NCBI GenBank assembly: GCA_020352775.1
Contig: CP070684.1
Span: forward strand, 574,043-611,725
Reading direction: 5' to 3'
Source of the DNA: Candidatus Omnitrophota bacterium
Lineage (GTDB): Bacteria > Omnitrophota > Gorgyraeia > Duberdicusellales > 4484-171
Length of the DNA: 37,683 bases
Shown here: piece after piece, positions 7,686 through 34,805 of the stretch
Layout of the letters: every line of letters begins with the position of its first letter
Position numbering within the stretch: position 1 is the stretch's first letter
Made by a program: the position numbers and the translations under genes
The notes under the pieces: model-generated
What the model was told of the DNA's origin: nothing
Databases searched by the model: none
Seen by the model: only the letters and a program-made list of their open reading frames with translations

Positions 7686-9632
7686 TTACAGTTCTTGGCG
7701 CAGTTGTCTCTCGGCATCTACCGCATCGCGGTTTATGCGAGAGAGGCAATTAATTATTTTTGTTTTCAGGGATGGGCTTATGATGTGGGAAGAGCAGATT
7801 TCTCTAAACACCTGTATGCTCATTCTGAAATAACGCACAATCTCTCCATCATCCACACTGCAAAGCCGGTGCAGATTGTTAAAGGGCTGGCCGTCAAACC
7901 ACGCCTCGCAAGCCGCGCTTAAGTGAAAGTAAAACTTCTTGCTTAAAGGATAAATGCGGAATTTACGTTCGGTGTTATGTATATTTTTGGTAAATTGCTC
8001 AACTTCTTCTTTGATTCGTTTAACCCTTTTAGTCAGGCGCGGCCGTTTTTCGCCTTTGCGCGGTTCATACACCAGGGAGGTGATTGCAATAAATAAACTT
8101 TTTTCATCCAGGCTGTCTAAGTACCCTTCTTCAAACATCTCTGAGACCGGAAGCTCAAAGCTATATACTTTGGCGGCTAAATCCGCTTTCCAGCTTAATC
8201 CCGTCTCTAAGATATAAGCGCACTCTCTTAAGAGGCTGATTTTGCGTTTCATCAACCCCAGCACTTCTTTCTGTTCCCAGGGTTTAGCTTGGTGAAAATG
8301 AAATGAGCGCGGATAAAGGTCATATATTTTTTCGCCCATAATTTTATAGAGATTTAGTATCGTAGCATAGCAGGAGTTTAGCTGGCTCTCAATGAGCTCG
8401 TATTTACCGTAAATAATATCTTGCAGGGATAAAATATCTATATGGTGAGGGTTAATCCTTGAAAACACATAGCCTTCTTCATCGATTCCCCGTCGACCGG
8501 CGCGACCCGCCATTTGATAGAAATCCCGTGTTTTAAGATAGCCGTGGTAGCGGCCGTAAAATTTGCTTAAAGAGTCGAACACCACGGTTTTTGCCGGCAT
8601 ATTTATTCCTAGCGCAAAGGTTTCGGTGGTGAATATAAATTTTATAAGACCGGAAGTAAAGATTTGCTCCACTGTCTCTTTTAAGGAAGGAAGGAGCCCG
8701 GCATGGTGATAAGCAATCCCTCTTTTTATGAGCTGGGAGAGAAAGTTAAAATGAGCAGATGCAGGAATACGCAGCTTGGTGGTGATTTCATCTAACAACT
8801 CTTTTACTTTTTGTTTTTCTTCTTGGGTTAGAAAATTGAGGCCGTAAACTTCATGGGCTAAATCTTCACATCTTCTGCGTGAGAAACAAAAGTAAATGCA
8901 GGGGTAAGCGCCTTTGTATTTTAGATGATGTACAAGAGTGTTTAGGCGGTTGGGTTTTAGATGAAGATGTGAGTCTCTAAAACGGCCCGGGACTTTTTTT
9001 AAGTATTTTTTAATCAGCCCTGCTTTTTTCAACTCCCCAAAGTTAGGAAAGATTTCATTGTGGCACTGAAAGAAAAAGTGTAACGGTACGGGTCTTTTTT
9101 CTTCCATAATAGATTTAATGGGAGGGGTGTGCACTTTTTTAAGCCACCAAATAAATTCTTCAATGTTAGGGATAGTTGCGCTTAAAGCAAGCATTTTCAT
9201 GTGGGGCGGAAGCAAGATGATTGCTTCTTCCCACACGGTGCCTCGTTCGATGTCGTCTAAGTAATGGATTTCATCGAAAATTACCCAATCCCGGTGGGTG
9301 AACTCTTCGGGATTGACCAACAGAGCGTTTCGAAAAATTTCAGTAGTCATAATCAAAATTGGTGCATTGCGGTTGATGCTGACATCCCCGGTAAGAATGC
9401 CGGTAGAGCCCGGGTATTTTTTGGAGAAATCCCTGAATTTCTGGTTACTCAGTGCTTTTATGGGCGCAGTATAAATTACTCCTTTATGTTTCTGCATACA
9501 GTTTTCAATGATGCGTTCGGCAATGAGGGTTTTACCCGCTCCAGTGGGAGCGCTTACGATTACAGAATGGTTTTTGAAGGCGTAATGGATCGCTTCTTCC
9601 TGAAATTTATCCAGCTTAAAATCTTGGTTCAT
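7686..9632 (-). CDS. Ski2-like superfamily 2 RNA/DNA helicase
   Basis: An ATP-dependent SF2 helicase of 648 residues. Walker A is APTGAGKT (residues 28-35), motif II is DEIH (120-123) and motif III is SAT (151-153). Motif VI is QMAGRAGRRG, near residue 375. DEIH with MAGRAGRRG is the signature of the Ski2/Mtr4 group, which unwinds structured RNA for exonucleolytic decay, so an RNA-turnover role is likely but inferred. After the two RecA folds there is a helical C-terminal region. The protein is shorter than eukaryotic Ski2/Mtr4 or mycobacterial HelY (about 900-1000 residues). The ATG at 9632 lies 9 nt after an extended -10 box with no Shine-Dalgarno. It is transcribed towards rpmB. Confidence 0.9.
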   Translation of the reverse strand: MNQDFKLDKFQEEAIHYAFKNHSVIVSAPTGAGKTLIAERIIENCMQKHKGVIYTAPIKALSNQKFRDFSKKYPGSTGILTGDVSINRNAPILIMTTEIFRNALLVNPEEFTHRDWVIFDEIHYLDDIERGTVWEEAIILLPPHMKMLALSATIPNIEEFIWWLKKVHTPPIKSIMEEKRPVPLHFFFQCHNEIFPNFGELKKAGLIKKYLKKVPGRFRDSHLHLKPNRLNTLVHHLKYKGAYPCIYFCFSRRRCEDLAHEVYGLNFLTQEEKQKVKELLDEITTKLRIPASAHFNFLSQLIKRGIAYHHAGLLPSLKETVEQIFTSGLIKFIFTTETFALGINMPAKTVVFDSLSKFYGRYHGYLKTRDFYQMAGRAGRRGIDEEGYVFSRINPHHIDILSLQDIIYGKYELIESQLNSCYATILNLYKIMGEKIYDLYPRSFHFHQAKPWEQKEVLGLMKRKISLLRECAYILETGLSWKADLAAKVYSFELPVSEMFEEGYLDSLDEKSLFIAITSLVYEPRKGEKRPRLTKRVKRIKEEVEQFTKNIHNTERKFRIYPLSKKFYFHLSAACEAWFDGQPFNNLHRLCSVDDGEIVRYFRMSIQVFREICSSHIISPSLKTKIINCLSRINRDAVDAERQLRQEL

Positions 9633-30654: not shown

Positions 30655-32193
30655 ATGTTTAGAAAAACCATAAAAGATACTACTACCGTAACCCTGGGTA
30701 CACTGGTTTCACGTCTGTTGGGGTTTGTGCGTGATGTGTTGGTTGCTAAGTTTTTCGGCACCTCCAACCTCCTTGAGGCATTTATTGTGGCTTTTCGCCT
30801 GCCCAATCTTTTTCGCAGCATCTTTGCGGAAGGTTTTGCTGATTCAGTCGCCACTCCGGTACTGTCAGAATATAGAAAGGAAAAAGATAAGCTTTTTGAA
30901 ATCGGCAATCATCTTCTTTCAATCTTTATGGTTGCACTCTTGGTATTTACTTTTTTGGGCATCGCGCTAAGTAAATACCTGGTTTTAATCATTGCTCCGG
31001 GATTTATTGCCAACCCGGCAAAATTTGAGCTGGCAGTATCATTTACCCGCATTACTTTTATTTACCTTTTTCTTATCGGGTTTTCAGTTAACTCTACTGC
31101 TATTCTATGCGCTTTAAAGAGATTCTTTATTTTTGCCATAAACCCCGCATTTCTTAATATTTCGTTTATCATCGGGATTATATTCTTTCAGCGTTATCTT
31201 CATAATTACATCTTGGTAGCCTGTGTGTTGGTAGCAGGTCTTTTACAAATGACTTTTTCTCTTATTTCTCTTAAAAAAGTGGGATTTAATTTGCGCTTTA
31301 ATTTGGGGCGGGCCCTAAAAAACAGTGTGGTTGTGCGCATGGTGAAATTGTTTATTCCCCGTATTTGGTCTAGTGCCGTGTATCATCTTAGTGTGTGGAT
31401 TGATACGGTATTTTCATCTCTTACTGCGATTGTGGGCAGCGGAGCTTTGGCTGCGATTTATTATGGAAATCGCCTCATTCAATTCCCTTTTGCTCTTATT
31501 GCGCTGTCCATATCACGCGTGGCAGTAGTAGATTTGTCAGTTTATCACAAAGAAGGAAAGATAGATGATTTTAAAAGGCTTTTTGTGTTTTCTTTTCAAA
31601 ATATCGTATTTTTTATTGTACCGGTTTGTTTTCTTTTTATGTTTTTATCAGAAGGAATCCTTGAAGTGCTTTTTAAAAGGGGAGCATTTGATCTTGCATC
31701 TTTAAAAATAACCTCATCAGTTCTTTTTTTCTATTCCTTCGGGCTTTTCTTCTTCTGCACCGTAAAGCTTTTGGTGCACTCTTTTTACTCTTTAAAGGAT
31801 ACGGTCACTCCTGCTAAAACCGCCACCATCTCACTTTTCGTAAACGCCGCTCTTAGTGCCGCTCTTATGTTTCCTTTAAAAATCGCAGGGGTAGCCCTAG
31901 GGAGTAGTCTGGCAGCACTTTTTAATTGCGTGCTTCTCTACAGAGTTCTTGTAAGAAAAATCGGTCCCATGGATTGGAAAGAAACAAAAAAACAACTTAT
32001 AAAAGTAATAGTTTTAAGTATCGCGCTGGGTTTTCTTTCTCGTATCCTGTGGGAGGTGCTTTTATGCTCTAAGTATTTGAAATTAGGCATTATCGCCCTT
32101 ATCTGGTGTGCTGTATTTTCTATCGTGGGTAATTACCTTGGTTTTAAACAGATTCGTTACGTAAAAGAATTAATTTTAAAACGAAAGAAGTAA
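30655..32193 (+). CDS. murJ: Lipid II flippase MurJ
   Basis: A 512-residue polytopic membrane protein of the MOP superfamily that flips lipid II for peptidoglycan synthesis. The opening TVTLGTLVSRLLGFVRDVLVAKFFG and the LPNLFRSIFAEGFADSVATPVLSEY segment are hallmarks of MurJ/MviN. The C-terminal half contains the SFYSLKDTVTPAK motif. About 14 hydrophobic segments are visible. It starts 73 nt from the divergent rpsT start codon, with no Shine-Dalgarno. Its stop shares one base with the uvrC start (TAATG), so uvrC is translated by coupling. Confidence 0.95.
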   Translation: MFRKTIKDTTTVTLGTLVSRLLGFVRDVLVAKFFGTSNLLEAFIVAFRLPNLFRSIFAEGFADSVATPVLSEYRKEKDKLFEIGNHLLSIFMVALLVFTFLGIALSKYLVLIIAPGFIANPAKFELAVSFTRITFIYLFLIGFSVNSTAILCALKRFFIFAINPAFLNISFIIGIIFFQRYLHNYILVACVLVAGLLQMTFSLISLKKVGFNLRFNLGRALKNSVVVRMVKLFIPRIWSSAVYHLSVWIDTVFSSLTAIVGSGALAAIYYGNRLIQFPFALIALSISRVAVVDLSVYHKEGKIDDFKRLFVFSFQNIVFFIVPVCFLFMFLSEGILEVLFKRGAFDLASLKITSSVLFFYSFGLFFFCTVKLLVHSFYSLKDTVTPAKTATISLFVNAALSAALMFPLKIAGVALGSSLAALFNCVLLYRVLVRKIGPMDWKETKKQLIKVIVLSIALGFLSRILWEVLLCSKYLKLGIIALIWCAVFSIVGNYLGFKQIRYVKELILKRKK

Positions 32194-33431
32194 TGGCAAA
32201 TCTTAAGGAGAAAATAAAAAAATTACCCCTCACAGCAGGGGTGTATATCATGAAATCAAAGAAGGGCGAAGTTCTTTATGTGGGCAAAGCCTCTTCTTTA
32301 AGAAAAAGAGTAGTCAGCTATTTTAGGAGAGGGCGCTCACGAAAGACCGAGATTCTGGTAGATAAAATCGCAGATATTGATTTTATTGAGTGTGAATCAG
32401 AGGCTCAGGCTTTAATTTTAGAGGCATCGCTCATAAAAGAGAAGATGCCTAAATATAACATTGCTTTGCGGGATGATAAAAGTTATCCTTATGTAGAGAT
32501 TACCAAAGAAAAATTTCCACGCCTTAGGGTTTCGCGGCCAAAGGGAAAAACTAAAAGTATGCTTTTTGGACCATACCCTAATGCAGGGCTTCTAAAGATG
32601 GCGTTAAAGATGATTCGAAGAATTTTTCCTTATTGTTCTTGTAGGAGGTGGCCCAAGAGTGCTTGCCTTTTTTATCATCTCAATCTTTGTCCAGGTCCTT
32701 GCATCGGGGCTGTTTTGGAATCTGAATATAGAGAAAACATTGAGGGGATTTGTAAAGTATTGAAAGGAGAACGAAAAGAATTAATAGAAGATCTTGAGCA
32801 GAAAATGAAGGAGTTTTCGCGTAAAAATAAATTTGAAGAAGCTGCTCTACTGCGCGATAAAATTTTGGCGATTCGCAATCTCTACCGTGGCAGAGGAAAA
32901 ATGCATGAGCTTCTTTTTTTAAAAGATGTAGTGGGCCTTGCGCATCCTCCTTTGGTGATTGAGGCTATTGATATTTCTTCTTTGAGCGGAGGAGGTGCGG
33001 CAGGCTCAGTGGTAGTGTTTAGGAATGCAATCCCAGATAAAAACAGTTACCGTCGCTATCGCATAAAAGAAGCCCGGTCCCGCGATGATTATGCCATGAT
33101 TGCAGAGGTGGTGAGAAGAAGATATTCAAGACTCCTAGAGGAGAAGAAAAAATTACCCGATTTAATTCTTATTGATGGTGGCAAGGGGCATGTAGAGAGA
33201 GCAAAGATTGAATTGGATAGACTGGGGGTTTCAGTAGCGGTTATAGGAATTGCCAAGCGAAATGAAGAATTATGGTTTCCTAAGGGTGCGGGTAAAAAAG
33301 AACGATTGGTTATTCCTAAAGATGACCCCAGTTTACATCTTATTCAGAGAATAAGAGATGAGGCACATCGTTTTGCCCACAAATATCATCTTTTGTGTCG
33401 CAAAAAGAAAATGACAGAAAAAAATGACTGA
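32193..33431 (+). CDS. uvrC: Short UvrC-type excinuclease subunit lacking the linker and HhH region
   Basis: A 412-residue UvrC homologue; E. coli UvrC has 610. The N-terminal GIY-YIG nuclease (GVYIMKSKKGEVLYVGKA, then ECESEAQALILEASLIKE), a Cys-rich segment (CSC, SAC, NLCPGPC, probable Fe-S ligands) and the UVR helix pair near residues 196-230 are present. The C-terminal RNase H-like nuclease keeps its acidic residues and His (AIDISSLSGG, SRDDYAMI, IDGGKGH, RDEAHRFA). About 140 residues between UVR and the second nuclease are missing. The chain ends about 20 residues after RDEAHRFA, so the C-terminal tandem HhH domain is absent. It overlaps murJ by 1 nt and the alkyltransferase by 8 nt. Confidence 0.88.
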   Translation: MANLKEKIKKLPLTAGVYIMKSKKGEVLYVGKASSLRKRVVSYFRRGRSRKTEILVDKIADIDFIECESEAQALILEASLIKEKMPKYNIALRDDKSYPYVEITKEKFPRLRVSRPKGKTKSMLFGPYPNAGLLKMALKMIRRIFPYCSCRRWPKSACLFYHLNLCPGPCIGAVLESEYRENIEGICKVLKGERKELIEDLEQKMKEFSRKNKFEEAALLRDKILAIRNLYRGRGKMHELLFLKDVVGLAHPPLVIEAIDISSLSGGGAAGSVVVFRNAIPDKNSYRRYRIKEARSRDDYAMIAEVVRRRYSRLLEEKKKLPDLILIDGGKGHVERAKIELDRLGVSVAVIGIAKRNEELWFPKGAGKKERLVIPKDDPSLHLIQRIRDEAHRFAHKYHLLCRKKKMTEKND

Positions 33432-33693
33432 GTTTGAGAAAAAAGTTCTTAAAGAAGTAGCCAAAATACCATTGGGCCAGGTACGTACCTATAAATGGGT
33501 AGCAAAAAAAGCAGGCAGGCCCAGGGCCTGGAGAGCGGTTGCAAATGCATTAAAGAAAAATCCTTATCCACTTCTTGTGCCTTGCCATCGGGTGGTCAAG
33601 TCTTCAAACGATTTGGGGGGTTACAATTTGGGCCGTGAGCTTAAACAGGAACTAATAAATTTAGAGAAAAAAATAAAGGATGTGATACAATAG
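33424..33693 (+). CDS. Minimal O6-alkylguanine-DNA alkyltransferase domain
   Basis: An 89-residue protein consisting only of the DNA-binding and active-site domain of Ogt/MGMT. The acceptor cysteine is present (C54 in PCHRVV), as are the upstream GQVRTYKWVA helix, RAVANALKKNP with its Asn, and the LGGYNLG segment. Stand-alone proteins of this size are usually alkyltransferase-like (ATL) proteins with Trp in place of Cys; here Cys predicts true dealkylation. It overlaps uvrC by 8 nt, so the two are translated together. That links alkylation damage sensing with excision repair, as known for ATL proteins. An overlap start removes the need for a Shine-Dalgarno. Confidence 0.88.
   Translation: MTEFEKKVLKEVAKIPLGQVRTYKWVAKKAGRPRAWRAVANALKKNPYPLLVPCHRVVKSSNDLGGYNLGRELKQELINLEKKIKDVIQ
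33683..33691 (+). promoter_or_regulatory. Possible extended -10 promoter of prfB
   Basis: TGATACAAT at 33683-33691 fits an extended -10 box (TGnTACAAT), lying at the end of the alkyltransferase gene and 25 nt before the prfB ATG. No -35 box is seen. prfB has no Shine-Dalgarno. Confidence 0.35.
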
Positions 33694-33716: not shown

Positions 33717-34805
33717 ATGCTTGAAGATATTAATAATAAATTAAAGGATTTAGAGGCTAGCATAAACAATTTTCGTATTTCTTTAAAGATTGAAGAGAAA
33801 CGAAAGGCAATGGGAGAGCTGCAACTTAAGATGTCTGAGCCTGGCTTCTGGCAGGATCAAAAGAAAGCTTCAGAGATAGTGGCGCAGTTGAAGGATTTAA
33901 AGAGCGATGTGGAGGAGTGGGATGGCCTTTATCAAAAACTACAAGCACTAAAAGAGCTGGTTGCGCTTTCCGATACTTCTTATGAGAAAGATATCATGCA
34001 GGAGACAGCGGATTTAGATAATAGCATCGAAAGCTTGCGTTTAAAGATCCTATTTTCTGGCAGATTCGATGATGCCAATGCCATTGTGGAAATTAATTCC
34101 GGAGCCGGCGGCACTGAGGCCTGTGATTGGGCAAGCATGCTTTTTAGGATGTATTTTCGCTGGGCAGAAGAGAAAAAATTCAAACTCAAAGTGCTTAATG
34201 AGGTAAGGGGAGAAGAGGCCGGGATAAAAAATATTACTTTTTTTGTTGAAGGAAGGAGAGCGTTCGGACTGCTTAGGTCCGAAAAAGGAGTGCACCGGCT
34301 GGTAAGGATTTCACCTTTTGATGCCAGCCGCAGACGTCATACTTCTTTTGCTTCGGTTGATGTGCTGCCGGAGATCAAAGAGGATATTGATATCGAGATA
34401 AAACCAGAAGAGATAAGAGTCGATACTTATCGCGCTTCCGGTGCCGGGGGTCAGCATGTAAATGTTACGGATTCGGCAGTAAGGATTACGCATTTTCCTA
34501 CTGGGATTGTGGTAAGTTGTCAAAATGAGCGTTCTCAGCATCAGAACAAATATAGTGCGCTCAGGGTCCTGAAGGCAAAATTGTATGAGATTAAAGAAGA
34601 GGAGAAGAGAAAAGAGCTGGAAAAGATTTCCGGAACTAAACGTAAGATTGAATGGGGTTCTCAAATCCGTTCTTATGTTCTTCACCCTTATCTTTTGGTG
34701 AAAGATCATCGCACCAATACCGAAGTTGGTAATGCTAAGGGAGTGCTGGATGGAAAAATTGATGAATTTATTTATGCTTATTTAAAACTAATGAGCCAAG
34801 AATAG
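33717..34805 (+). CDS. prfB: Peptide chain release factor 2
   Basis: RF2 recognises UAA and UGA and triggers peptide release. The 362-residue protein has the RF2 stop-codon motif SPF (in RISPFDASRRRHTS, near residue 198) and the universal GGQ (GAGGQHVN, near residue 243). Many bacteria control prfB with a +1 frameshift at an early UGA. Here the whole gene is one open frame beginning MLEDINNKL, with no in-frame UGA, so that autoregulation is absent. Its stop is 2 nt before secA, suggesting coupled translation. Confidence 0.95.
   Translation: MLEDINNKLKDLEASINNFRISLKIEEKRKAMGELQLKMSEPGFWQDQKKASEIVAQLKDLKSDVEEWDGLYQKLQALKELVALSDTSYEKDIMQETADLDNSIESLRLKILFSGRFDDANAIVEINSGAGGTEACDWASMLFRMYFRWAEEKKFKLKVLNEVRGEEAGIKNITFFVEGRRAFGLLRSEKGVHRLVRISPFDASRRRHTSFASVDVLPEIKEDIDIEIKPEEIRVDTYRASGAGGQHVNVTDSAVRITHFPTGIVVSCQNERSQHQNKYSALRVLKAKLYEIKEEEKRKELEKISGTKRKIEWGSQIRSYVLHPYLLVKDHRTNTEVGNAKGVLDGKIDEFIYAYLKLMSQE

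Follow-up and report, generated by a model that had tools for sequence, protein, structure and literature searches.

Is a small alkyltransferase encoded in overlap with UvrC a working partner of the excision nuclease, or a neighbour kept by inheritance? The question is raised by a locus of Candidatus Omnitrophota lying in the window, that is, the whole stretch of 37,683 nucleotides analyzed here. The window is part of a single-contig genome of 1.275 Mb, estimated to be 85% complete.

The two genes and their products

Against the bacterial UvrC family TIGR00194, the UvrC of the window scores 408.6 bits, above the family cut-off of 285.45, and it shares with this family both nuclease domains, the four-Cys region and the UVR motif. 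Pfam places GIY-YIG at residues 16–89, UVR at 195–229 (PF02151, 35 bits) and UvrC_RNaseH_dom at 245–395. The first-pass annotation had stated that both nuclease sites are kept, and indeed all the catalytic residues are found: Y18, Y29, R39, E77, and N89 of GIY-YIG, which are conserved in relatives, and D260, D299, D328, and H392 of RNase H, which are kept in 182/182. Cys150, Cys158, Cys166, and Cys170 are likewise present and conserved in relatives. The protein differs from TIGR00194 UvrCs in lacking both the middle linker and the (HhH)2. Its residues 231–236 join full-length positions of about 239–371, so that about 127 linker residues (about 140 by the earlier estimate) are missing between the UVR motif and RNase H. 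It stops where the UvrC_RNaseH_dom profile does, with coverage to 158/159. A C-terminal (HhH)2 is usual in UvrCs, though not universal; none is detected in it by Pfam, and the 55–65-aa tail of full-length UvrCs is absent. An assembly or frameshift artefact hiding the HhH was rejected, since the downstream frames are those of AGT and prfB and all sampled members of the same family end alike.

Table 1. Coordinates of the pair, its neighbours, and fused genes in related genomes
Feature	Location	Strand	Remarks
murJ (lipid II flippase)	30655..32193	+	Overlaps uvrC start by 1 nt; ancestral left neighbour of pair
uvrC	32193..33431	+	412 aa, short form: GIY-YIG nuclease, four-Cys region, UVR (UvrB-binding) motif, RNase H nuclease
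uvrC/alkyltransferase stop/start overlap	33424..33431	+	8 nt, ATGACTGA; holds AGT start and uvrC stop
Single-domain Cys-bearing O6-alkylguanine-DNA alkyltransferase (AGT)	33424..33693	+	89 aa; Y23, R37, N46, C54, H55, E81
prfB (release factor 2)	33717..34805	+	Ancestral right neighbour of pair
UvrC-AGT fusion, G242	L064:1648-3186		Single-contig genome
UvrC-AGT fusion, G230	L063:1250-2827		Same genus as G242
UvrC-AGT fusion, G273	L283:1757-3256		Different genus from G230 and G242

The uvrC stop overlaps the start of the alkyltransferase, as noticed at first pass, and the two are overlapping genes, not one fused frame (Table 1). The N-terminal domain is usual in AGT/MGMT proteins and not strictly required. 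The ORF in the window lacks it and holds the complete C-terminal AGT domain (DNA_binding_1, 104 bits; TIGR00589, 98.9 bits), including the PCHRV motif with the reactive Cys that had been noted. This “mini-AGT” has in common with the C-terminal domain of AGT/MGMT/Ogt the full domain, PCHRV, the Arg finger, Tyr, Asn, His, and Glu, and differs in its missing N-terminal domain and in being encoded behind or fused to uvrC. Among the 105 pair members described below, the active-site residues of the ALKYLTRANSFERASE are nearly invariant: Cys in 104/104 readable members, Arg in 105, Asn in 104, and His, Glu, and Tyr in 103 each. Omnitrophota mini-AGTs further differ from AGT/MGMT/Ogt in a Trp two residues after the base-flipping Tyr (Y-x-W), which is seen in 96/105 (window 33496-33498). 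In two genomes (L255 of G162 and L211 of G305), the mini-AGT frame is broken near the active site, and the MAGs show two PF01035 pieces; these are either decayed genes or assembly errors.

An AlphaFold model of the single chain, built with a 7-sequence alignment, has a pLDDT of 91.4 (56.6 from the single sequence). Its best PDB match by TM-score is M. tuberculosis OGT bound to DNA (TM 0.90, superposing at 0.8 Å); TM is 0.86 with human AGT and 0.76–0.81 with ATL structures. The comparison with ATLs matters, because the mini-AGT resembles S. pombe Atl1, E. coli YbaZ, and V. parahaemolyticus ATL in being a single domain of similar size, with the N-terminal domain absent. In ATLs the active-site Cys is replaced (Trp, Ala). 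The mini-AGT may be imagined as an ATL-like recruiter that binds O6-alkylguanine and calls UvrABC with its Cys unused, the more so because its partner UvrC is a known ATL contact: the Cys-less homologue of E. coli binds directly to UvrA and UvrC (PMC10779285), a link to excision repair that adjacency and fusion suggest for the mini-AGT too. Against this, no readable pair member has lost the Cys, the catalytic Asn, His, and Glu are conserved as well, and the model is nearer to AGT than to ATLs. Being encoded with uvrC is a further difference from ATLs. ATL identity is ruled out by the Cys and the other catalytic residues, which mark an active-type AGT, and a recruiter with an idle Cys is very improbable. 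Since AGT domains consisting of the C-terminal part only are active when fused to a nuclease (PMC10779285), the conserved active site and the AGT-like model together suggest that the mini-AGT should be an active alkyltransferase. That it would act by direct reversal is the safest part of the mechanism considered below, and is very probable.

Distribution of the pair

Loci of uvrC were taken from 182 genomes of the phylum, and the HhH and a downstream alkyltransferase were scored by script, with the HhH of G058 scored by eye. An alkyltransferase was counted as paired when it was fused to UvrC or lay no further than 400 nt downstream of its gene. The genomes came from best-scoring rows, so that the frequencies are not those of an even census, and some loci have a flank of about 1.5 kb only. 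An adjacent or fused pair is found in 105/159 scored genomes of the window’s class (102 within 400 nt and three fused), whereas the alkyltransferase lies slightly further away in eight and is not found nearby in 46. These pairs come from 33/41 families, a recurrence that speaks against chance and confirms the conservation of the pair in relatives. In about one third of the class genomes the two genes are not adjacent, and several are without any AGT match; none of the 19 genomes from other classes has the pair. Among the 102 adjacent unfused pairs, 46 overlap and 74 are within -60 to +30 nt. By gene structure and conservation, a compact UvrC and a single-domain Cys-bearing AGT form here a pair of DNA-repair genes that is found across this class of Omnitrophota. 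Neither a second UvrC nor an alkyltransferase (PF01035) beyond the one match turned up in searches of the window’s genome (85% estimated completeness), and these candidates were dropped. The three objections raised at first pass, namely a second UvrC, a pair without conservation, and a frameshift, have all fallen away.

The pair is real, conserved and apparently undescribed, has a rare natural fusion, and is made of ordinary components; among the papers searched, none described a UvrC-AGT fusion or UvrC in Omnitrophota. The number of its origins is beyond the alkyltransferase tree, which is too weak for such counting with 86 columns. In one genus of family f36 (G229, L096; G327, L062), the slot behind uvrC is occupied by a full-length AGT of another subtype. 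By its sequence, this AGT groups with the ordinary AGTs that are not adjacent to uvrC, as though one partner had been exchanged for another of its kind.

The pairing also has to be weighed against a plain DNA-repair operon, in which the mini-AGT, an ordinary direct-reversal enzyme, came to lie behind uvrC at an early stage of the class and stayed there for the convenience of co-expression; each protein would act on its own, and the fusions would be a stop-codon accident that both domains tolerate. murJ stands beside 86/105 pairs and prfB beside 64/105; murJ-uvrC-AGT-prfB is an old block of unrelated genes, so that vertical inheritance alone could keep the pair, and the AGT by itself has a full set of active-site residues. 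However, the pair is also seen without murJ or prfB adjoining (murJ was not found adjoining at 19 pair loci, some of which are cut short), in one genus an AGT of a different type has taken the slot, and the pair turns up again in Elusimicrobiota.

In 150 Elusimicrobiota genomes, UvrC frames are mostly 425–460 aa, as expected without HhH, and most of them are unpaired. At least five Elusimicrobiota have uvrC and AGT paired: four of these genomes, with the AGT in-frame or adjacent, plus L135. A mini-AGT close behind an HhH-less uvrC is seen in G500, G473, G517, and G532 (L311, L312, L313, and L314, respectively). These four mini-AGTs are of another sub-lineage, with the N-terminus KIPKxIxKKMxxYP-FY in most. 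Probably, this pairing is independent or transferred. Small Cys-bearing AGTs also occur in Elusimicrobia and, away from uvrC, in Patescibacteria, and judging from these sequences are not rare. In a Clostridia contig (L169), uvrC and the AGT gene behind it both encode full-length proteins.

HhH loss, the short linker, and fusions

The short linker is common to all sampled classes of Omnitrophota and is also seen in Verrucomicrobia and Patescibacteria contigs. By this distribution, it is an ancestral trait of the whole phylum that has nothing to do with the pair; the idea that linker loss belongs to the pair was rejected, because the unpaired classes of the phylum show it as well.

The HhH has a different history. 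It is absent in 117/159 genomes of the class and in 3/19 of other classes. The first-pass annotation had proposed that the small protein perhaps supplies DNA binding lost from UvrC; put more fully, the helix-turn-helix of AGT would take over from the HhH, and the pair would be a split UvrC. Pairs are indeed in excess among HhH-less UvrCs by raw counts (84/117 versus 21/42 of those with HhH; Fisher p 0.014), but the excess disappears when relatedness is taken into account. On a UvrC tree of 176 rows, the minimum number of changes is 15 for the HhH and 28 for pairing, and over nine supported independent HhH contrasts, a test of low power, pairing goes the same way in 1.1, the opposite way in 0.4, and does not differ in 7.5. 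Dependence between HhH loss and pairing is not supported: the two are largely decoupled, and uncorrelated on the tree at this low power. Individual genomes tell the same: 21 have the pair while UvrC keeps its HhH, 27 of the class have an HhH-less UvrC without adjacent AGT, and several HhH-less genomes more than 90% complete have no AGT match at all. An HhH-less UvrC without adjoining AGT is the norm in Elusimicrobiota and is found in Patescibacteria, Phycisphaera, and WOR-1 contigs too. The proposal was therefore not upheld, and replacement of the HhH by AGT is improbable, even though AGT sits at the exact HhH position in the fusions described next.

There are more intimate cases. In three genomes of family f9, UvrC and AGT form one open frame (Table 1), with the AGT domain directly after RNase H, exactly in the place that the HhH has in TIGR00194 UvrCs. 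The distance from the end of RNase H to AGT is 16 residues in G230 and G242 and two in G273. As around the pair of the window, murJ is upstream in all three, and prfB is downstream in two, the contig of G230 ending too soon. In a sister genome, G046 (clade support 100/100), UvrC has the HhH and AGT is a gene of its own, with an overlap of 4 nt between the two genes, so that HhH loss and fusion were probably simultaneous in that lineage. The fusion is present in 3/8 genomes of the family, and no other stop-free fusion was found among the matches listed when 384 class genomes were searched with the G273 fusion. Its rarity suits the plain operon, as do about ten genomes in which only one stop codon parts uvrC from an AGT that is in frame with it, so that fusion is a small step. 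On the other side, two genera have retained the fusion, and its active sites are intact. The architecture resembles that of the archaeal AGT-EndoV and ATL-EndoV fusions, in which a C-terminal-only alkyltransferase domain is joined to a repair nuclease (PMC10779285), and differs in that the nuclease here is UvrC, which makes the incision of excision repair, and the host is a bacterium.

A proposed joint unit of direct reversal and excision

The best explanation of these observations is a co-expressed, sometimes covalent unit of direct reversal and excision, to which we give about even odds. The suggestion of such a joint unit at first pass has become more credible through the three natural fusions; the conserved pair and the intact Cys are supported too, while the part that had the small protein replace the HhH was lost. 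Cooperation between AGT and UvrC is argued for by pairs that keep recurring, by a partner exchanged for another AGT, by the fusions, and by the known ATL-UvrC contact of E. coli; it may be true or false with roughly equal probability. Confinement of the fusion to one family speaks against the joint unit, as do the third of class genomes in which the genes are not adjacent and the several that have no AGT match, and operon neighbours need not touch. The plain operon is accordingly a serious competitor, somewhat below even odds.

If the joint unit exists, the compact UvrC and AGT would be co-translated, and AGT would be made with UvrC because both work at the same lesions. AGT would flip out O6-alkylguanine and transfer small alkyl groups to its own Cys, and lesions that it binds without reversing, or sites with spent AGT, would be handed to UvrABC. 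The contact would probably be near the RNase H end of UvrC, where AGT is attached in the fused family, and may exist in unfused species as well. A stronger version is rather unlikely: one complex would decide whether O6-alkylguanine is reversed directly or removed by dual incision, and the nuclease that carries AGT would clear it once spent, with AGT covalent in one family and a bound partner elsewhere in the class.

What is known of how direct reversal and excision repair share alkylated guanine comes mainly from the ATL proteins, which lack the Cys. With a natural fusion of UvrC and alkyltransferase, and with a pair kept in most families of the class, ready-made proteins are at hand for testing this link; the pair is of interest as a test system, not as a new kind of enzyme. 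In E. coli, the HhH is required for 5′ incision; how general this requirement is becomes questionable when so many UvrCs lack the HhH and yet have their nuclease residues intact.

UvrA and UvrB are present in the window’s genome. The uvrB gene (L285, G000:C1:572041-573942) stops some 100 bases short of the window on its left side, and its C-terminal part reads N. Within the window, a Ski2-like DEAD helicase with a DSHCT domain is encoded at 7689-9632 on the minus strand, opposite to its neighbours.
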